A stretch of 64,000 nucleotides of DNA from Taurinivorans muris. GTDB taxonomy: Bacteria > Desulfobacterota > Desulfovibrionia > Desulfovibrionales > Desulfovibrionaceae. Below, in pieces: positions 51,617 through 62,813 of the stretch. Positions within the stretch are counted from its first letter, which is position 1; every line of letters begins with the position of its first letter. The stretch is from the NCBI RefSeq assembly GCF_025232395.1, contig NZ_CP065938.1, positions 806,001 through 870,000 of the forward strand, written 5' to 3'. The notes under the pieces are model-generated. The model saw only the letters and a program-made list of their open reading frames with translations. It searched no databases and was not told where the DNA came from. The translations under genes and the position numbers were made by a program.

Positions 51617-54600
51617 ATGTTGTCAACAGCAATTATTCAATCTTTTCTTTATGTAGGTATCATTATCAGCTTAGGCGGTTTAATACTTGCTTCACGTTTA
51701 TCCAAAACGTATCTCGCGTTTTTAGGCTTATGCATTGCTGACATCGGCTATGTCTGCATTGGTTTGTCGATACCAAACGATTCCGCATACATAGGAAGCA
51801 TTGCATTAATGAGTTTCAATGCCGTTGCGCGGCTTGCGGCTTTAATTGCTTTAATAAGAATGGCAAAAGTCAGCCGGGCATTGAAACTGCCCCTTGCCGG
51901 AATAGCAAAAGAACTCCCTTATTCTTCTGTTGTTTTCGCTCTCGCTCTTTTCAGCGCCATTGAAATATCTCCTTTCTTCACCCCTGACGCAAAACACCAT
52001 ATCCTTTACGGCGCCATACTCCTTGGCGACCCGCTCCATATTTCAAGCTACGGAATAGCGGTGCTTGTCACGCTGATCAACATCGCCAAACTTGTGATGA
52101 CTCTTTTCATTGTCCATTCTCTCTTCCAAGGAAATTCCTATTCCCATAAAACGGAAAACGCATGGAACGATTTCAAAACAAGCCCGCTTTTGCTTCATCT
52201 CTTCTTTGCGGTTCTTGTTATTTTCGGATTAGGTTCCCATGAATTTATCCATTACCTGACAACAACATATGCACAAAATACTTTCAGCCAGCAATTCCCC
52301 GATTTTACGCTGACATGGAAAACAGAAACCCTTATCCTTTATATGGGTGCGGCGCTTGTTCTTGCCGGCGGTTTCATTCTTCCCAGCTTGCGCAAACCGC
52401 TTGCTTTTGTCATTGCCGCCGTTTCTTTCATCTTCGCCGCGCTTGACCATTCAGGCTCCGCCCTTTCTTATTTCTTTGCCGTTCTTTCCGGATTTATGGC
52501 AATGATCATCACCCTTTATTCCTTTGGATACATCAAACATAACGAAACAAGCTATTATGCCTTGCTCCTTTTGATGTTCGCTTCCATTTTAGGATTACTG
52601 ACAAGCGAAAATTCAGGTTCTTTCTTTGTTTTTTGGGAAATCATGACGTTAAGCTCCTATGTCCTTGTCGCTTTCGACGATACTCCAAAAGCGCATTATG
52701 CGGCAAAAAAATATTTTCTCATGTCCGGCATCGGGGCGGTGATCATGCTTCCTGCTTTGCTTATGCTGCAGCTGCACAATGCACAGGAACTATATGCCCT
52801 GCTCACAGCCAAAGAAGCAATAAACGTGTTTCTTTACGTCTGCCTTATCGCTCTGTTCATCGGCTTTGGCGTTAAAGCCGGTGTTTTTCCATTCCATTCA
52901 TGGCTTCCCGACGCCCACCCCGCCGCGCCTTCCTCTGTTTCCGCTCCTCTTTCCGGTATTCTTACCAAAACGGGCTTATATGGAATGCTCTTTTTCTTTT
53001 CAACGTTTTTAGGGTTCGGACTTTTACAAAATTCCCTCGTCTGCCCATTCTTCAAACTCCCCTCAATAGGCGTCGTCCTTATCCTTTTGGGCATTATCAC
53101 CATGTTTTACGGGGAGATCAAAGCCTACCAAGCAATAGAAATCAAACGCCTTTTCGCCTATTCCACCATCGGGCAGATCGGTGAGATTTGCATGACACTG
53201 GGCGTTTTCTCCTATCTTGCGACGACAGGGGCATTATTCCACATTTTCAACCATGCGGTCATGAAAGATTTGATATTCCTTTGCACAGGCGTTTTCATTC
53301 TCCGTTCCGGATTCACCAAAATCGAAGATTTGAAAGGGCTCGGAAAAGTAATGCCTTTTACCGCCAGCTGCATGGTTATCGGCTTGCTTTCCATTTTGGG
53401 TCTGCCCCCTTTGGCAGGCTTCAACAGCAAATTCATCATGCTTTTGGGTTTGGCGGAATACAGCCCTTATTTAGCAGCCCTCATGCTTCTTGCAAGCTTC
53501 ATCGGCTGTGTGTACTATACAAGAATCATCCGTATCCTTGTTTTTGAAAAATACACCGGACCGCAAGTTGCCGACGCCACTCCCGCAATGAAGGCAGCCT
53601 TGGGCGCACTTGCTTTCCTCTGCGTCCTTTTCGGAATTTATCCGGAACTTGTTCTCAATACGCTCATAGCTCCGGTAACCGATCTTATCGCAGACAAAGG
53701 CGGTTTCAACCTTTCCGGTCAAGGTCTTGACCTTGTCAGCCTGACCACGGTCACATGGAAAAGCCCCGCCCTTATTATCGTACTCGGAGCGGTTTTACCT
53801 GTCATTCTGCGCAAAAATCCCATGCAAAGCGGTATCGCAAGCGTTTTCGTGCTTGGTTTCGCAAGCGTTGCTTTGCTTGTGACCATGGGTCAATATGACA
53901 CCCTGTCCTGCATTTTTGCACTCGGCATCACAGTAATCGGAGCGACAACAGCTTGCTATTCCATTGGATATTTGGAACATAACCACGCCCAATGGCGTTA
54001 TTACGCATCTTTCCTCTGCATGTGCGGCGGTTTGGTCGGCGTTGCGACTTCCTCGAATTTGTTCAGCTTTTTCTTCTTCTGGGAAATCATGAGTTCGTGG
54101 ACTTTGTATTTTGTCATTATTCATGAAGAAACCCGTGAATCCCTTTGGGAAGGCTTTAAATATTTCCTCTTCAATATGATTGGGGCGGGTTTCCTCTTCC
54201 TTGGCGTGATTTTAACCGTTCATTGGCTCGGAACTGCCGATTTTGCAGAAATGAAAAACAGCTTCACCCAACTGGACGCAGGAAAAGTCACCGTGCTTTT
54301 TGCACTGCTGACCATCGGCTTCCTCATGAAAGCCGCCCAGCTTCCTTTCCGTATCGATGTGCAAATGCACCCGGCAACGGCACCAACCCCCGTATCCGGC
54401 TACATTTCTTCGGTACTGCTGAAAAGCGCGCTTTTCGGGCTTGCGAAACTTTTCTTGGTATTCGGCGGAATAAGCCTTTTCGCAGAACATATCAACCTTG
54501 CCTATCTCAGTGAAATCTCACTGTATATCGGTGCGGTAACTATCGTTATGGCTGCTTCGTTCGCAGTTTTGCAAAGCGATATAAAACTTGTGCTTATCTA

Positions 54601-55381
54601 TTCAACAGTAAGCCAGCTCGGTTATATGGTCGTCGGCATTTCCCTCGGCACTTCGCTTGGAGTGGCGGGAGGCATTTTACATCTTGTCAACCACCTTTTC
54701 TTTAAGGATTTATTGTTCCTTGTTGCCGGTGTCATTATCGCCCAAACCCATATTTATTCCATGGACAAAATGGGCGGACTGGGATTGAAAATGCCTAAAA
54801 CGCTTGCTCTGTTCGCCATTGGTGCTGTCTGTGTCATCGGCTTGCCGCCAAGCAACGGCTTCACCTCAAAATGGATTATTTACCATGCGCTTATGGAACA
54901 AGGCTATGTGCTTCCTGCTATTTTATCCTTGATAGGCAGCGTGCTCACCCTTGCCTATATGACGAAATTCCTGCACAGCGTTTTCTTGGGACAAGTGAAA
55001 CCAAGCATGGAAACTGTCCATGAAGCGCCGAAAACCATGCTTATCCCCATGGCATTGTTATCCCTTGGCTGTATCGTCACCAGCGTATTCCCCGGCTTCG
55101 TTCTGCTCGCCATTAACAAAATATTGCTCAGTGCGGGATTACAGCCTTTGGATGTCGCTCCTTGGGGTATCAACTCCGGAAAGGGCGCTTGGAATGCGAC
55201 GCTTACGGCAATTCTGTTCTTCATTGTTTGGTATATCGGGCAGAAAGTTCTGCGCAAGTTCAGTAAGCAGGAACGGCAAACAGCTATTTATACCTGCGGT
55301 ATTCCTGCCGAAAACTTCGCTCCGTCAACTTCACAAGACATATACAGCACGAAAATCCTATTCGGCACTGAAAATAAATAA
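51617..55381 (+). CDS. cooM: CooM-like double antiporter subunit of an energy-converting hydrogenase
   Basis: A 1254-residue polytopic membrane protein with about 30 helices. It contains two complete NuoL/M/N-type (proton_antipo_M) modules in tandem: the first with FWEIMTLSSY near residue 340 and KAGVFPFHSWLPDAHPAAPS, the second with FFFWEIMSSW near residue 820 and KAAQLPF-x-MHPATAPTPVSG. About 200 extra hydrophobic residues precede the first. The key Glu (WEIM) and the Lys of KAG/KAA, used for ion pumping, are kept in both modules. CooM of Rhodospirillum rubrum and D. vulgaris has this length. It couples ferredoxin-linked proton reduction to ion export. It is the first gene of the operon. 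Confidence 0.9.
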   Translation: MLSTAIIQSFLYVGIIISLGGLILASRLSKTYLAFLGLCIADIGYVCIGLSIPNDSAYIGSIALMSFNAVARLAALIALIRMAKVSRALKLPLAGIAKELPYSSVVFALALFSAIEISPFFTPDAKHHILYGAILLGDPLHISSYGIAVLVTLINIAKLVMTLFIVHSLFQGNSYSHKTENAWNDFKTSPLLLHLFFAVLVIFGLGSHEFIHYLTTTYAQNTFSQQFPDFTLTWKTETLILYMGAALVLAGGFILPSLRKPLAFVIAAVSFIFAALDHSGSALSYFFAVLSGFMAMIITLYSFGYIKHNETSYYALLLLMFASILGLLTSENSGSFFVFWEIMTLSSYVLVAFDDTPKAHYAAKKYFLMSGIGAVIMLPALLMLQLHNAQELYALLTAKEAINVFLYVCLIALFIGFGVKAGVFPFHSWLPDAHPAAPSSVSAPLSGILTKTGLYGMLFFFSTFLGFGLLQNSLVCPFFKLPSIGVVLILLGIITMFYGEIKAYQAIEIKRLFAYSTIGQIGEICMTLGVFSYLATTGALFHIFNHAVMKDLIFLCTGVFILRSGFTKIEDLKGLGKVMPFTASCMVIGLLSILGLPPLAGFNSKFIMLLGLAEYSPYLAALMLLASFIGCVYYTRIIRILVFEKYTGPQVADATPAMKAALGALAFLCVLFGIYPELVLNTLIAPVTDLIADKGGFNLSGQGLDLVSLTTVTWKSPALIIVLGAVLPVILRKNPMQSGIASVFVLGFASVALLVTMGQYDTLSCIFALGITVIGATTACYSIGYLEHNHAQWRYYASFLCMCGGLVGVATSSNLFSFFFFWEIMSSWTLYFVIIHEETRESLWEGFKYFLFNMIGAGFLFLGVILTVHWLGTADFAEMKNSFTQLDAGKVTVLFALLTIGFLMKAAQLPFRIDVQMHPATAPTPVSGYISSVLLKSALFGLAKLFLVFGGISLFAEHINLAYLSEISLYIGAVTIVMAASFAVLQSDIKLVLIYSTVSQLGYMVVGISLGTSLGVAGGILHLVNHLFFKDLLFLVAGVIIAQTHIYSMDKMGGLGLKMPKTLALFAIGAVCVIGLPPSNGFTSKWIIYHALMEQGYVLPAILSLIGSVLTLAYMTKFLHSVFLGQVKPSMETVHEAPKTMLIPMALLSLGCIVTSVFPGFVLLAINKILLSAGLQPLDVAPWGINSGKGAWNATLTAILFFIVWYIGQKVLRKFSKQERQTAIYTCGIPAENFAPSTSQDIYSTKILFGTENK

Positions 55382-55393
55382 GGGAGAAGAACC

Positions 55394-56374
55394 ATGCAGG
55401 ATAACTATTCATACTTAGCTTTTCTTGGAGTTGCAGTATTCAATCTCCTTATTTTTCCGGGAGGCTTGTTCGCGCTCGGCTTGGGCGTCCTTTTCAAAGG
55501 TTTGGACAGAAAAATCGAAGCGCGCTTGCAGCGGCGCGTCGGACCGCCGGTCATCCAGCCTCTTATCGATATTGTGAAGCTTTCCGGCAAGGAAGCGATG
55601 ATTCCTGAAACAGCCCAGCGTCCTTTGTTCCAATCCGCGCCGCTTCTCGGTTTTGTCGGAATGGCGGTTTGCGCTTCATTGCTGCCCATTCCGGGGGTAT
55701 CGCAGGGATTGCCTTACATGGGTGATATGCTGGTCTATTTTTATTTGCTGCAATTACCAGCCGTAGCCCTCATGATTGCGGGTTCTTCCTCAAGCTCCCC
55801 TTTTGGAACGCTTGGCTTTTCACGGGAAATGACATTGATGTTCGCCTATGAAATTCCGCTTTTGATGATAATACTCGCCATCGCCATGAAAGTGGGCGGT
55901 GATAATTTTGCGGAATTTTCTCTGATGAATATTATCAATTATCAGGAACAAAACGGACAGTTCATCACAAATTGGGTGATGCTTCCCGCTTTTTTCGCCT
56001 ATCTTTTCTTCCTTCCCGGCACAACAGGCGTGCCTCCTTTCGACATTCCGGAAGCGGAAACGGAAATCGTCGAAGGTCCGCTTCTTGAATATTCAGGAAT
56101 AAGCTTAGCCTTTTTCCAGCTTACCGGCGCAATCAAAAGCATCGTTGTTTTGGGATTTGGCGTTGTTGTTTTCTTTCCTATGACTTTAGGGGATAATATC
56201 CTTGTGAACATTTTGTGGTTCGCCCTCAAATGCTTTATCCTCATGCTCGTTTCCTGCACTTTTGTAAAGTCTGCAACCGGCAGGTTCAGAATTGAACAGG
56301 CATTTGGTTTTTATCTTAAAATTCCCGCACTTTTGGCAGCAATAAGCCTTATCTTGGTATGGCTTGATTTTTAG
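55394..56374 (+). CDS. cooK: CooK, NuoH-like membrane subunit
   Basis: A 326-residue membrane subunit of about eight helices that links the hydrogenase peripheral arm to the antiporter, homologous to NuoH/HyfC/EchB. Characteristic features are ARLQRRVGPPVIQPLIDIVKL (matching the NuoH R-x-GP-x-x-GLxQ-x-DxxK block), the FAYEIPLL segment and PPFDIPEAETEIVEGPLLEYSG, with several carboxylates that belong to the quinone/ion channel in complex I. GGGAGAA precedes the ATG. It follows cooM by 12 bases. Confidence 0.92.
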   Translation: MQDNYSYLAFLGVAVFNLLIFPGGLFALGLGVLFKGLDRKIEARLQRRVGPPVIQPLIDIVKLSGKEAMIPETAQRPLFQSAPLLGFVGMAVCASLLPIPGVSQGLPYMGDMLVYFYLLQLPAVALMIAGSSSSSPFGTLGFSREMTLMFAYEIPLLMIILAIAMKVGGDNFAEFSLMNIINYQEQNGQFITNWVMLPAFFAYLFFLPGTTGVPPFDIPEAETEIVEGPLLEYSGISLAFFQLTGAIKSIVVLGFGVVVFFPMTLGDNILVNILWFALKCFILMLVSCTFVKSATGRFRIEQAFGFYLKIPALLAAISLILVWLDF

Positions 56375-56382
56375 GAGTTGAT

Positions 56383-56853
56383 ATGAGTTTCTTAAATAAT
56401 TTGGCAACAAAATCACCTTGGCTTTTCAGGATAAACGCAGGGTCCTGCAACGGCTGCGACGTGGAACTTGCAACAACGGCGTTCATTCCCCGTTTCGACG
56501 TTGAACGGCTTGGCTGCAAATATTGCGGAAGCCCCCGCCATGCGGATATTGTTCTGATAACCGGACCTTTGACAATAAGAATAAAAGATCAAGTGCTCAA
56601 AGTTTGGAATGAAATTCCCGAACCGAAAGTCACTGTCGCTGTGGGCATTTGTCCTATTTCCGGCGGTGTTTTCAAAGAAGGGCACAGCATTCAGGGACCG
56701 CTTGACAAATATTTGCCGATCGACGTGAATATTCCGGGTTGCCCTCCGCGCCCTCAGGCCATTATGGAAGGGGTATTGCTTGCGAAAGAAATTTGGCTGA
56801 AACGTATTGAAGAAGCGAAACGCAAAGGAGTTCGCCGTGTTCAGATTTCTTAG
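56383..56853 (+). CDS. cooL: CooL, [NiFe] hydrogenase small subunit
   Basis: A 156-residue NuoB-like small subunit with a single [4Fe-4S] cluster. The ligands are C22 and C25 (GSCNGCDVE), C90 (GICPISGG) and C120 (GCPPRP), the proximal N2-type pattern. Unlike the long small subunits of uptake hydrogenases, no Tat signal is present, so it faces the cytoplasm with the large subunit CooH. TAGGAG precedes the ATG. Its last 17 bases overlap the small Fe-S-motif ORF that starts at GTG 56837. Confidence 0.95.
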   Translation: MSFLNNLATKSPWLFRINAGSCNGCDVELATTAFIPRFDVERLGCKYCGSPRHADIVLITGPLTIRIKDQVLKVWNEIPEPKVTVAVGICPISGGVFKEGHSIQGPLDKYLPIDVNIPGCPPRPQAIMEGVLLAKEIWLKRIEEAKRKGVRRVQIS

Positions 56854-57031
56854 AAAAATACCGGCGGGAAAAAAACTGCCGAAAGCAAGAATTTTTCTAA
56901 CCAAGCTGAAACAATTTATTTCACCAGATGATGCTGCAACAAAAGCGTGCCGCCGCTGCGGAACCTGCAAACATCTTTGCAGCTATATGAAAACAACTAA
57001 AAAAGGATCTCGTGATGTTCAAATTTCTTAA
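56837..57031 (+). CDS. Small Fe-S-motif protein between cooL and cooX
   Basis: A 64-residue ORF starting at GTG 56837, with AAAGGAG six bases upstream. It is basic (many K/R) and holds one 4Fe-4S-type motif: C38-RR-C41-GT-C44-KHL-C48. Its N-terminus (MFRFLRKI) resembles the CooX start (MFKFLKIL), and its C-terminus (KKGSRDVQIS) resembles the CooL end (RKGVRRVQIS). It overlaps each neighbour by 17 bases, with near-identical DNA at the two junctions. This points to a local duplication of the cooL/cooX junction. It is either a real extra electron-transfer or assembly protein or a truncated CooX copy. Ribosome site, frame and cysteines favour a real gene. Confidence 0.6.
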   Translation: MFRFLRKIPAGKKLPKARIFLTKLKQFISPDDAATKACRRCGTCKHLCSYMKTTKKGSRDVQIS

Positions 57032-57545
57032 AATATTAATAAGAAATATTTTTCAAGGACCTGCAACAGAAGCATTTCCTTTGGCGCCTGCTCCCACTCC
57101 AGACAGATTTCGCGGACGGGTAAGCATAAATCCGGATTTGTGCGTGGGCTGCGGAATTTGCAAACACGTCTGCACAGGCGGTGCCATCAATATAAGCCCG
57201 AGCGATGATAAAACAGGTTACCATTACACTGTATGGTACAATTCCTGCTGTCTTTGCGGATCATGCAGGTATTACTGCCCGACCAACGCCATTTCAATAG
57301 TCAATAACTGGCATAACTCCCATTTTCAGGAAGAAAAATATAAAATGGCGGAAACCCATTTTATCCCCTATATGCATTGCGAAGGCTGCGGTGCTCCCAT
57401 GCGCGTCTTACCTCCCCATATCGCAGCGAAAATTTATGCGCACAGCCCTGTTGACGTAAATAAAATCATCAAACTTTGCCCAAGCTGCCGGCAAATTGCC
57501 ACAGCGGAACAGCAAGGAGAACTCCATGAATCAAAACCAGAATAA
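57015..57545 (+). CDS. cooX: CooX, two-cluster polyferredoxin subunit
   Basis: A 176-residue NuoI-like subunit that brings electrons to the hydrogenase. Its two 4Fe-4S motifs are CVGCGICKHVC (C43-C53) and CCLCGSCRYYCP (near residue 78-89). A later C-x2-C pair (HCEGCGAP and LCPSCRQ) is extra and might bind metal. AAAAGGA precedes the ATG at 57015 by seven bases; a GTG three bases upstream is less well placed. It overlaps the small Fe-S ORF before it and cooU after it (20 bases). Confidence 0.92.
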   Translation: MFKFLKILIRNIFQGPATEAFPLAPAPTPDRFRGRVSINPDLCVGCGICKHVCTGGAINISPSDDKTGYHYTVWYNSCCLCGSCRYYCPTNAISIVNNWHNSHFQEEKYKMAETHFIPYMHCEGCGAPMRVLPPHIAAKIYAHSPVDVNKIIKLCPSCRQIATAEQQGELHESKPE

Positions 57546-58170
57546 AACAATAGAAACCATAAAGGAAACTTTTGAACGGACCGATTTTCCAAACCTTGTT
57601 TGGACTTCCAACCATTATAACAATTTCTACGCATGGCTCAAACTTAAAAATCCCGCCGACCTGCCAAAAGCGGCAGAACTTCTGCAAAGCCTCGATGCCC
57701 GTTTATGCACGGTCACTGCTTACTCCGAAGACCGTTCGCTTGAAGCGAACCGCCGTGCGATAGCCTACCATTTCGCCATTAAAAGCGTTCTGTTTTGCGT
57801 CACCATACAAATTTACGATGAGGAAACCTTGGAACCGCTGAAGGTTCCTTCCATTACCCCGTATTTCAGAAATGCCGATTGGAATGAACGGGAATTTATG
57901 GAAATGTATGACATACAAATCATTGACCACCCGAATCCGAAACGTTTATTTTTGGATGAACGCCTTGATAAAGGTATCATGACAAAGCTTATTCCGTTTT
58001 CTTCCATGGTACACGGCACAGGAAGCAAAAACCTTTGGGAACAAGTCATGCTTGAAAAAATAGGGTATGTGCCTGAAAGCTTTAAACAATCATTTAAAGA
58101 ACCCGCCTTTACCAAGGTAGAGGAAACCAAACTTGACGCTCCAAAGCCTCAAACCGAAGAAAAGGAATAA
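57526..58170 (+). CDS. cooU: CooU, NuoC-like subunit
   Basis: A 214-residue homologue of the 30-kDa NuoC/HyfG N-terminal subunit, which packs against the large subunit and carries no cofactor. The conserved NuoC block appears as PYFRNADWNEREFMEMYDIQIIDHPNPKRLFLDE (core WNEREFMEMYDI), preceded by the RAIAYHFAI... strands. The start at 57526 follows AAGGAG and begins MNQNQNKTIET; the ORF stays open for ten further codons inside cooX. The C-terminal ~20 residues are K/E/P-rich. It ends two bases before cooH. Confidence 0.9.
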   Translation: MNQNQNKTIETIKETFERTDFPNLVWTSNHYNNFYAWLKLKNPADLPKAAELLQSLDARLCTVTAYSEDRSLEANRRAIAYHFAIKSVLFCVTIQIYDEETLEPLKVPSITPYFRNADWNEREFMEMYDIQIIDHPNPKRLFLDERLDKGIMTKLIPFSSMVHGTGSKNLWEQVMLEKIGYVPESFKQSFKEPAFTKVEETKLDAPKPQTEEKE

Positions 58171-58172
58171 TT

Positions 58173-59276
58173 ATGGAAAATACACCTCTTGAAACCAAAA
58201 GCTTTTCCCTTCCTTTAGGCCCTATCCATGTCGCCCTTGAAGAACCGATGTATTTTAAACTCGACCTTGAAGGGGAAAGAGTGAAACATGTTGAAATCAC
58301 TTCCGGACACGTCCACCGCGGTATGGAACTTTTAGCCACCAAACGGAACTTCTTTCAGAATGTGGTTTTGGTGGAACGTGTTTGCTCCCTTTGTTCCAAC
58401 AGCCACCCGCTGACCTATTGTTTGGCAATTGAAAATTTGGCAGGCATCAAAGTTTCCCCGAAAGCCCAAGCCCTGCGTATTTTAGCGGAAGAAATAAAAC
58501 GTACCGCCTCCCACCTTTTCAACGTTGCCATTTTAGCCCATGTCATCGGTTACAAATCACTTTTCATGCACATGATGGAAGTCAGGGAAATCATGCAGGA
58601 CGTGAAAGAAACCGTTTATGGAAACCGCATGGACATAGCTGCCAACTGCATTGGCGGCGTAAAATATTCCATCAACACCGAGCTTCTTGATTTTGTTGAA
58701 AAAAGTATTGTACGGACAGAAAACCATATCAAAGAACTTGTCGATATTTACGCAAGCGACAAAATGATTTTGGCACGTACCAAAAATGTCGGACGCATAT
58801 CCGCCGAAGACGTGATCAAATACGGATTGGTCGGACCTGTTGCCCGCGGCAGCAACGTCAATATCGATACCAGACGCGACGCCCCTTACCTTATTTACGA
58901 CCAATTGGATTTTGACGTTATCACTGAAACGGGCTGTGACGTTCACGCAAGAGCGATGGTCCGCCTTAGGGAAACACTGGAATCAATAAAAATCATCAAA
59001 CAGCTTATCCGCAATATTCCGGAGGAAGGAAATCTGAGCGTTTTGCTTCCGCACATCAAAGCCGGAGAAGCCATGGCACGCTCCGAAGCTCCCAGAGGCG
59101 AACTTTTTTATTACGTCCACACAGACGGAACGGATATGCCGTTGCGCTTGAAATGGCGTGTTCCGTCCTATATGAACTGGGAAGCCTTGGAAGTAATGAT
59201 GAAAGACTGCGAAGTTGCGGACGTTTCCCTTATTGTCAACAGTATCGACCCTTGTGTTTCCTGCACAGAGCGATAA
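58173..59276 (+). CDS. cooH: CooH, [NiFe] hydrogenase large subunit
   Basis: A 367-residue large subunit. The [NiFe] ligands are C71 and C74 (ERVCSLCSNSH) and C361 and C364 (DPCVSCTER). GHVHRGMELLATKRNF is the usual preceding block of group 4 hydrogenases and NuoD. The protein ends three residues after the last cysteine ligand, so there is no C-terminal peptide to be cleaved by a maturation protease, as described for CooH. The SH partner residue and R-rich P-loop-like EIKRTASHLFN region are conserved. It is the catalytic subunit, evolving or oxidising H2 in the cytoplasm. Confidence 0.95.
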   Translation: MENTPLETKSFSLPLGPIHVALEEPMYFKLDLEGERVKHVEITSGHVHRGMELLATKRNFFQNVVLVERVCSLCSNSHPLTYCLAIENLAGIKVSPKAQALRILAEEIKRTASHLFNVAILAHVIGYKSLFMHMMEVREIMQDVKETVYGNRMDIAANCIGGVKYSINTELLDFVEKSIVRTENHIKELVDIYASDKMILARTKNVGRISAEDVIKYGLVGPVARGSNVNIDTRRDAPYLIYDQLDFDVITETGCDVHARAMVRLRETLESIKIIKQLIRNIPEEGNLSVLLPHIKAGEAMARSEAPRGELFYYVHTDGTDMPLRLKWRVPSYMNWEALEVMMKDCEVADVSLIVNSIDPCVSCTER

Positions 59277-59277
59277 T

Positions 59278-59646
59278 ATGCACGAAACGGTCATTGCTTC
59301 TTCTTTGCTCAAAATCATTACGGAAGAAACAGCAAAACAGCATAAAAACCTTTATGTGGATGAAATCCACTTGAAAATAGGCTTATTAAACTGCATAGAA
59401 GCACAAACGGTTCAGGGTTGCTTTGAAATCTTGGCAGAAAACACCAGAGCCGAACATGCGAAAATGATAATCGAACGCTTGCCCCTGCAAGGTTTCTGCA
59501 ATGATTGTCAAAAAAACATAAGCATAACGAAAAGGCATTTTGTCTGCCCATTATGCCAAAGCGGCAATGTTGACTGGCAAGGCGGCAATGAAATGCAAAT
59601 AACCTCTATAAAAGTACACGAAAAAAAAGAAGAGGAAAAAGAATAA
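59278..59646 (+). CDS. hypA: Hydrogenase nickel-insertion protein HypA
   Basis: HypA, with HypB, delivers Ni to hydrogenase large subunits. The 122-residue protein starts M-H-E, the conserved Ni-binding N-terminus, so the ATG at 59278 (one base after cooH) is the right start. A zinc site is made by CNDC and CPLC. The C-terminal ~12 residues are a Lys/Glu tail. It is encoded inside the coo operon, which ties maturation to expression of this hydrogenase. Confidence 0.92.
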   Translation: MHETVIASSLLKIITEETAKQHKNLYVDEIHLKIGLLNCIEAQTVQGCFEILAENTRAEHAKMIIERLPLQGFCNDCQKNISITKRHFVCPLCQSGNVDWQGGNEMQITSIKVHEKKEEEKE

Positions 59647-59647
59647 G

Positions 59648-60250
59648 ATGTCACAACAATATATTATTTATGCCGATTCCGACAAATGCCGCGGTTGTAA
59701 AAAATGCGAATTAGCCTGCATTGCATCCCATAACGGCGTCACCATTAAAGAAGCAGCGAAACTGCGCAAAGACCATGAACCGCGTGTTCACGTTGTAAAA
59801 ACCGATACGCTCAAAATGCCCGTTCAATGCCGCCAATGCGAGGAAGCTCCCTGCGCGCTCATTTGTCCGACCCACGCCCTTGTTCAGGATGACAGGGGAA
59901 AAGTTGTCATGCGCACCGAATTTTGCGCAGGCTGCGGGCTTTGCGTCATGGCTTGCCCCTATGGTGCAATCAGCAGGACCTTTGTGGAAATCACGGAAGA
60001 TGAAAAAACACGCCTTGCGCGAAAGGACCCCCGCCTTATTTCTGTTCGCTGCGACCTTTGCGAACAATGGAGAGCCAGTGAAGGCAAAGAAGTCAGCGCA
60101 TGCGTTGAAGCATGCGCATTCGGGGCGCTTCGTATGATGCCCTTAGAAGAATACAGAGCCCTCATGCACGGTGAAGCGCTCTCCCATACCGCACTTGAAA
60201 AGGAAGCCCCAAGTAATTCCGCCCTCTCCGAATCTAAACCGGAACAATAA
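59648..60250 (+). CDS. cooF: CooF, 4Fe-4S electron-transfer protein
   Basis: A 200-residue polyferredoxin of the CooF/HycB/DMSO reductase B type. Four cysteine groups are present: CRGCKKCELAC, CRQCEEAPCALICP, CAGCGLCVMACP and the group CDLCEQW ... CVEACAF, which together bind up to four [4Fe-4S] clusters. In R. rubrum CooF carries electrons from CO dehydrogenase (CooS) to CooH; here no cooS gene follows and the donor is open. The ATG lies one base after hypA. The last ~40 residues are a low-complexity, acidic tail. It is followed by a terminator. Confidence 0.92.
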   Translation: MSQQYIIYADSDKCRGCKKCELACIASHNGVTIKEAAKLRKDHEPRVHVVKTDTLKMPVQCRQCEEAPCALICPTHALVQDDRGKVVMRTEFCAGCGLCVMACPYGAISRTFVEITEDEKTRLARKDPRLISVRCDLCEQWRASEGKEVSACVEACAFGALRMMPLEEYRALMHGEALSHTALEKEAPSNSALSESKPEQ

Positions 60251-61178: not shown

Positions 61179-62813
61179 ATGTCCCAATTGAAGAACAATG
61201 ATGTCCTAGGAACGACCAACCGAGGCAATATTTGCGAATCCGGTTTATGCTCCTTATGCAGGGCTGACTGTCAAGGAAAATGCGAAACATGGCTCGGCGC
61301 AATGAAAGGTCGCGATATGCTCTATCCACGTGATTTCGGCTTTGTCACTGCCGGTTCTGACAACACGAACCCGCAAGGCGTATCTTACAATGCCATCAAA
61401 ATCCAAGGCAATCTTTATGGTGCCAAAGGTGCCGACCAAAAAATCGCCAAAAAAGGCGATACGCTCTTTACCGATGTAAATCTTGAAACAAAAATTGGAC
61501 AGAAAAAACAAATCACCTGCAAATATCCGGTCATGACCGGTGCATTGGGCTCAACGTTCGTCGCCGCCAAATATTGGAATTCTTTTGCCACGGGATGCGC
61601 TTTATGTGGCGTTCCCGTCGTTGTCGGCGAAAACGTGGTGGGGGTTGACAAGAAAGCGGAAATTGTCAACGGACGTATCAAAAAAGCTCCTGAACTTGAA
61701 AGACGCATTGACGGTTATTTAAGATACAGCGAAGGCTACGGCGCCATTATTGTACAATTAAATGTTGAAGATGCGAGAAACGGCGTTGCCGAATATGTCG
61801 CTGAAAAATATGCGGACAAAGTCATTATTGAATTGAAATGGGGACAAGGCGCAAAAAATATCGGCGGCGAAATCCAAGTCAATGATATTGAATATGCCAA
61901 ATTCCTCAAACAGCGCGGTTACCTGGTCGATCCCGACCCGACCTTACCCGAAGTGCAAGCCGCCTATAAAGCCGGCGCCGTGAGCCATTTTGCCCGCCAC
62001 AGCCGTTTGGGCTATACAGCCTTCACCAATACGGACCAGGTACGCAAGAATTTCGCTTCCCAAGTAAGCTATCTGCGCAAATTAGGTTTTAAAGCAGTTT
62101 CTTTGAAAACCGGCTCATACGGCATGGAAGCCCTCGCACTTGCGCTTCGTCTTGCCAGCGACTGCAAACTCGACCTCCTGACTATTGACGGTTCAAGTGG
62201 CGGTACAGGAATGAGTCCATGGGATATGATGGAAAACTGGGGCGTTCCGAGCATTCTTTTACATTCAAAAGTACATGAATATGCAAGCCTTTTAGCCGCA
62301 AACGGCAAAAAAGTTCCGGACCTCGCCCTTGCCGGCGGCTTTGCAAAATCAAGCCAAATATTCAAAGGACTCGCCCTTTGCGCTCCTTATGCGAAACTTA
62401 TCTGTATGGGACGCGCCATGATGATCCCCGGTTTCTTAGGCGCCAATATTGAGGGAGCCCTCCACCCTGAACGCCGCGCAGAAGTTTCCGGAAACTGGGA
62501 TAATTTGCCGAAAACCGTCAGCGAACTGGGCTCAACAGCCGAAACGATTTTTGCAGGCTATCATGCTCTCGAAGCAAAACTCGGCAAATCCGAAATGAAG
62601 AAAATCCCTTATGGCGCAATCGCCATGTGGACAAACCTCGACCGTATCGCCGCAGGTTTGCAGCAGCTTATGGCAGGCGCCCGTAAATTCAATATGTCAG
62701 AAATCGCAAGAACGGATATTGCAACCATTAACCGTGAAACGGAAAAAGAAACAGGCATTCCGTTCATCACGGAAGTTAATGACGAAACAGCAAAAAATAT
62801 TCTTCTTGCTTAA
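61179..62813 (+). CDS. FMN-binding glutamate-synthase-like protein
   Basis: A 544-residue protein related to the FMN-binding (central synthase) domain of glutamate synthase. It shows the FMN-phosphate site in TIDGSSGGTGMSPWDMMENWG, the following strand PSILLH, and KTGSYGMEALALALRLASD before it. LALAGGFAKSSQIFKGLALCAPY resembles the second FMN-contact region, and GQGAKNIGGEIQVND matches the family. The N-terminal 35 residues hold five cysteines (C19, C24, C27, C31, C35) in a pattern that could bind an Fe-S cluster. The glutaminase domain of GltB is absent. It might make glutamate from NH3 with reduced ferredoxin, as proposed for archaeal short forms, or do another FMN reaction. The function is not certain. 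Confidence 0.82.
   Translation: MSQLKNNDVLGTTNRGNICESGLCSLCRADCQGKCETWLGAMKGRDMLYPRDFGFVTAGSDNTNPQGVSYNAIKIQGNLYGAKGADQKIAKKGDTLFTDVNLETKIGQKKQITCKYPVMTGALGSTFVAAKYWNSFATGCALCGVPVVVGENVVGVDKKAEIVNGRIKKAPELERRIDGYLRYSEGYGAIIVQLNVEDARNGVAEYVAEKYADKVIIELKWGQGAKNIGGEIQVNDIEYAKFLKQRGYLVDPDPTLPEVQAAYKAGAVSHFARHSRLGYTAFTNTDQVRKNFASQVSYLRKLGFKAVSLKTGSYGMEALALALRLASDCKLDLLTIDGSSGGTGMSPWDMMENWGVPSILLHSKVHEYASLLAANGKKVPDLALAGGFAKSSQIFKGLALCAPYAKLICMGRAMMIPGFLGANIEGALHPERRAEVSGNWDNLPKTVSELGSTAETIFAGYHALEAKLGKSEMKKIPYGAIAMWTNLDRIAAGLQQLMAGARKFNMSEIARTDIATINRETEKETGIPFITEVNDETAKNILLA

Follow-up and report, generated by a model that had tools for sequence, protein, structure and literature searches.

Natural half-ferredoxins, described in 2025, are reported to be rare proteins, so far known from thermophilic anaerobes only and of untested function, and they have been proposed as the ancestor of all bacterial ferredoxins (PMC12648291). 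The small ORF reported here resembles these proteins ('semidoxins', protodoxin PD1; PMC12648291) in that an anaerobe carries one [4Fe-4S]-type motif of four cysteines on a protein of very small size; in this feature, a single [4Fe-4S] cysteine motif in a protein of 29-80 aa, the family to which it belongs agrees with them. There are differences in size and setting: the described half-ferredoxins are of ~30 aa, come from thermophiles and were modelled with a beta-alpha-beta half fold (PMC12648291), whereas the family of the small ORF reaches from 29 to 80 aa with a basic N-terminal stretch, is found in Desulfovibrionaceae within a defined enzyme operon, and shows helices only in low-confidence AlphaFold models.

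That enzyme is the Coo hydrogenase, the proton-pumping group 4 complex encoded by cooMKLXUH, which has been described as hexameric in passages of work on D. vulgaris (PMC545781) and Rubrivivax (PMC4257681). In those passages the order cooMKLXUH-hypA-cooF is that found here, and no gene between cooL and cooX is named in them (PMC545781, PMC4257681). The original prediction that such a protein had not been described agrees with the literature searched, from which no description was recovered, subscription papers and current annotations lying outside the scope of the search. The adjoining gene encodes a 2[4Fe-4S] subunit of the CooX / NuoI / EchF type, which the small protein resembles in having a basic N-terminal stretch followed by CxxCGxCxHxC; the small protein differs from it in having one motif instead of two and no C-terminal CxxC..CxxC domain, and the CooX type is not its closest sequence by profile.

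A small ORF between cooL and cooX

The window, a stretch of 64,000 nt from the mouse-gut bacterium Taurinivorans muris, contains a complete Coo operon in the order cooM-K-L-X-U-H-hypA-cooF, with its membrane subunits, its NuoB-, NuoI-, NuoC- and NuoD-like subunits, HypA and CooF all represented, within which the small ORF and its signals are placed as follows:

51617..55381, + strand: cooM-like membrane subunit, 1254 aa (orthologues in other genomes)
55394..56374, + strand: cooK (ORF list and operon comparison)
56383..56853, + strand: cooL, NuoB-like small subunit (PF01058)
56824..56830, + strand: AAAGGAG, ribosome-binding site of the small ORF, within the 3' end of cooL (read directly)
56837..57031, + strand: small one-motif Fe-S ORF, 64 aa, GTG start, flanked by cooL and cooX
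56948..56980, + strand: codons of the CRRCGTCKHLC motif, whose four cysteines are shared by all of 20 aligned relatives
57015..57545, + strand: cooX, NuoI-like 2[4Fe-4S] subunit with C-terminal CxxC..CxxC (domain search)
57529..58170, + strand: cooU (PF00329)
58173..59276, + strand: cooH, catalytic large subunit (PF00346)
59278..59646, + strand: hypA (PF01155)
59648..60250, + strand: cooF-like polyferredoxin (domain search and operon comparison)

The extra GTG-started ORF with a ribosome site and one Fe-S motif, as originally predicted, can be read directly at 56837-57031; its translation, MFRFLRKIPAGKKLPKARIFLTKLKQFISPDDAATKACRRCGTCKHLCSYMKTTKKGSRDVQIS (64 aa), has a single C-x2-C-x2-C-x3-C motif (CRRCGTCKHLC) and, as cooL runs to 56853 and cooX begins at 57015, the predicted overlaps of 17 nt with each neighbour are exact. 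An alternative TTG start at 56807 is also open and gives 74 aa, the ribosome site belonging to the GTG at 56837. Codon use in the frame of the ORF exceeds that of composition-matched stop-free shuffles (p=0.003), is low amongst real gene pieces in the window (6th percentile), and by chance an equally long open core of like composition would be expected in ~4% of cases. That the ORF is real, and more than a chance frame, follows mainly from 22 other genomes, in which an ORF of this kind recurs at the corresponding position. No Pfam or NCBIfam model matched the protein above its cut-off, the best Fe-S match being Fer4_4 at 12.3 bits against a curated cut-off of 24, which leaves it outside Pfam Fer4.

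For the window species there is one sequence of this site; the contig of the same-species MAG UBA8003, which has been assigned to Taurinivorans muris at >98% identity (PMC10507020), ends inside cooX. No promoter or terminator at the locus scored above shuffles, and no match was found in plasmid records. The C-terminal CxxC..CxxC pair of CooX (57378-57491, codons 122-158) is invariant in 115 of 115 CooX sequences and may bind zinc or another metal. Some 0.9 kb downstream of cooF lies a gene (61179-62813) whose 544-aa product contains the glutamate-synthase core domain PF01645 and is unmatched in the operon flanks of 20 other genomes.

Distribution and selection amongst the Desulfovibrionaceae

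A CooL search of 288 Desulfovibrionaceae genomes allowed 115 cooL-cooX junctions to be read, 92 of which have no small ORF and gaps of -17 to +27 nt or, in one case, of 63 nt. The 23 junctions with the ORF are those of the window genome and of 22 genomes from one other genus (g52), where the cooL-cooX gap of 132-246 nt is occupied by a co-oriented short ORF of 29-80 aa, mostly 53-80 aa, with the C-x2-C-x2-C-x3-C motif; at one of the 23 (L136) the frame is broken by unknown bases. The small ORFs start and stop within -17 to +17 nt of their neighbours' ends, usually within a few bases, and in carriers sequence resembling a ribosome site is found twice, once where cooL ends and once where the small ORF ends ahead of cooX. 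An exception is L119, whose 29 aa begin with an ATG lying 41 nt downstream, unless a TTG at +17 is used. This shortest member (L119:570-656; 37 aa from the upstream TTG) is near the reported half-ferredoxins in size, and its motif, CGKCAVCHHVC, lacks the glycine that normally follows the second cysteine. The 63-nt gap is that of a g52 non-carrier (L098), has no motif ORF, and is possibly the remnant of a lost small gene.

Amongst congeners the ORF is absent from all three with a readable junction, where cooL directly overlaps cooX by the same 17 nt (one more congener, in which cooL was not matched, and the broken UBA8003 stand outside the count); the small ORF is therefore dispensable for a Coo hydrogenase. 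A profile search of 395 genomes of the phylum gave strong matches in Desulfovibrionaceae alone, with no member outside the family, and two more distant coo-type junctions have no small ORF. Within the 288 family genomes all strong profile matches are these cooL-cooX ORFs, and the next-best are motifs in large proteins, which from motif and size we take to be GlpC/HdrC-like Fer4_8 motifs in large oxidoreductases; these share CxxCGxCxxxC with the small protein but lie inside frames of ~430-1250 aa. The profile used to test the window ORF was made from g52 members alone, with the window genome left out, and it ranks the small ORF first in the window genome (33.4 bits, E=1.2e-7), followed by a motif in a 1224-aa frame at 22.7 bits.

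Twenty aligned members have four invariant cysteines and a near-invariant Gly, the remainder being variable and usually including a basic N-terminal stretch. In g52, the one genus that the dN/dS analysis covers, seven pooled pairs give a dN/dS of 0.13 for the motif (p=2e-7), indicating strong purifying selection, and of 0.69 for the fast-evolving flanks (p=0.017), indicating weak selection; within single clusters the small ORF has a higher rate than cooX and cooL, mostly with values well below 1. The original prediction had made its case depend on the ORF being intact in close relatives and on its cysteines being conserved: the first point is divided, with the ORF absent from the three readable congeners and present in 22 more distant genomes, and the second is borne out by the invariance of the four cysteines in the more distant carriers. 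Judged by sequence the small ORFs are one small protein family; the motif is short, so convergence between the window ORF and those of g52 may have played a part. Because 22 other sampled species share a similar gene at this position, and because selection keeps its cysteines, the small ORF is probably a real, so far undescribed accessory part of the Coo hydrogenase.

Origin of the insert and of its junctions

The near-identity of the two junctions that had been pointed out is due to a direct repeat of 37 nt, with 76% identity and a spacing of 178 nt:

56824..56860, + strand: first junction copy (cooL end and small ORF start), 76% identical to 57002-57038
57002..57038, + strand: second junction copy (small ORF end and cooX start; repeat comparison)

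In a tree of CooL and CooX together the 22 g52 carriers fall within one part of 48 rows, mixed with non-carriers, and the window operon stands alone amongst non-carriers; the carrier state needs at least 6 changes on this tree, fewer than in 500 of 500 label shuffles (mean 21). Given three readable congeners without it, the ORF was either gained separately here, by insertion or transfer, or repeatedly lost elsewhere, the sequences being compatible with a separate insertion with duplication of the junction, with a transfer, and with an old presence followed by many losses. It is conceivable, with the odds somewhat against it, that the small gene arose separately in the window genome and in g52 with the local junction duplicated each time, an origin that would be compatible with the explanation we prefer. 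Junction style is lineage-specific (-17/-17 in the window genome, near 0 in g52) and on both sides of the insert matches each lineage's own cooL/cooX junction, and the window carrier is nested amongst non-carriers; yet the motif signature is common to both beyond the cysteines, CRRCGTCKHLCSYM compared with CRRCGTCRHVCSLL.

Role of the small protein

The reading that we favour, with a probability of roughly 55%, is that of a real small Fe-S protein, known to date only from the cooL-cooX position of Coo (group 4, energy-converting) operons in the Desulfovibrionaceae, which serves as an optional relay or docking piece. Most likely the family is an accessory of the Coo hydrogenase, a 'half-ferredoxin' with one cluster; the fuller proposal, that a natural half-ferredoxin, a present-day single-motif Fe-S protein under selection and with a known partner complex, serves an energy-converting hydrogenase as an additional, optional subunit and has been gained and lost amongst the Desulfovibrionaceae, is tentative and falls a little short of an even chance. 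The small protein would be made through translational coupling with cooL and cooX, its basic N-terminal helix would dock it on the complex or the membrane, and its C-x2-C-x2-C-x3-C loop would bind one [4Fe-4S] cluster, whether by itself, in a homodimer or with a partner to complete it. AlphaFold predictions from two alignments are of low confidence (pLDDT 58 and 62), and both have a helix at the N terminus, a Cys loop and a further helix. An ordinary ferredoxin lends the fourth cysteine of a motif of this kind to its other cluster, and this points to a homodimer, or to a ligand from a partner, in the small protein. It would sit at the CooX/CooL end of the complex, beside these subunits on the path between soluble donors (CooF, ferredoxin) and CooH, and would there be an additional relay for electrons or a docking piece, in either case optional.

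The idea that it replaces a lost ligand of a CooX cluster was rejected, because CooX retains its cluster cysteines in carriers, save for one cysteine in one genome; since the identical full operon order is also found in 11 carriers and 9 non-carriers, the small protein would be an addition to CooX. The main rival likewise has a real small Fe-S protein and makes of it a factor that helps in assembly or delivers clusters, or else a redox or oxygen sensor, for CooX/CooL. In keeping with such a role the protein is small, basic, poorly conserved beyond its motif, optional amongst species and encoded between two subunits bearing relay clusters, but we regard this role as unlikely; the results fit a relay equally well, and the junctions imply that CooL and CooX assemble without the small protein in most species.

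It is less probable still, and decidedly so, that the ORF is a degenerate tandem duplicate of the junction and the beginning of cooX, which stays open by chance or is retained although it has no function. The 37-nt junction repeat at 76% and the congeners without the ORF would fit such a history, as would the 27 nt round the motif, which are 81% identical to motif 1 of cooX with 3 of 500 shuffles equally good; however, the codon use of the ORF is coding-like, a counterpart is under selection at the same site elsewhere, and the g52 small proteins, not CooX, are closest to it. CooX of the window genome is not amongst the matches of the g52-only profile at E<=10, and BLOSUM scores of the small ORF are 45-81 to the g52 small proteins, most of which exceed its score of 53 to its own CooX. 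The truncated CooX copy that had been suggested is disfavoured by these profile and pairwise scores; CooX is not the closest relative, and there is one CxxCxxCxxxC motif instead of two. The idea that the entire ORF was copied from cooX or cooL was also rejected, as at the DNA level cooX shares just the 27-nt motif stretch with it outside the duplicated junction and cooL shares nothing.

A strong RNA hairpin is predicted at 56836-56914, covering the small ORF's start (-21.1 kcal/mol, 20-nt arms 85% complementary), a region that folds better than 200 of 200 shuffles (z=-3.8) and that could tie translation of the small ORF to the completion of cooL by ribosomes. It is very improbable, in spite of this folding, that the insert acts as an RNA or spacer, with the hairpin tuning translation of cooX and the peptide incidental, since codon-level selection in relatives is focused on the cysteine motif, an Rfam search of the locus matched no family, and the insert differs in length amongst relatives, from 132 to 246 nt, yet keeps frame and motif.

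If the small ORF does encode an optional relay or docking piece, then a selected one-motif Fe-S protein is fixed within a defined hydrogenase operon, which would give the half-ferredoxin a testable job. Furthermore, its mixed presence across closely related Coo operons would constitute a natural experiment on an extra relay piece in a complex-I-like enzyme.
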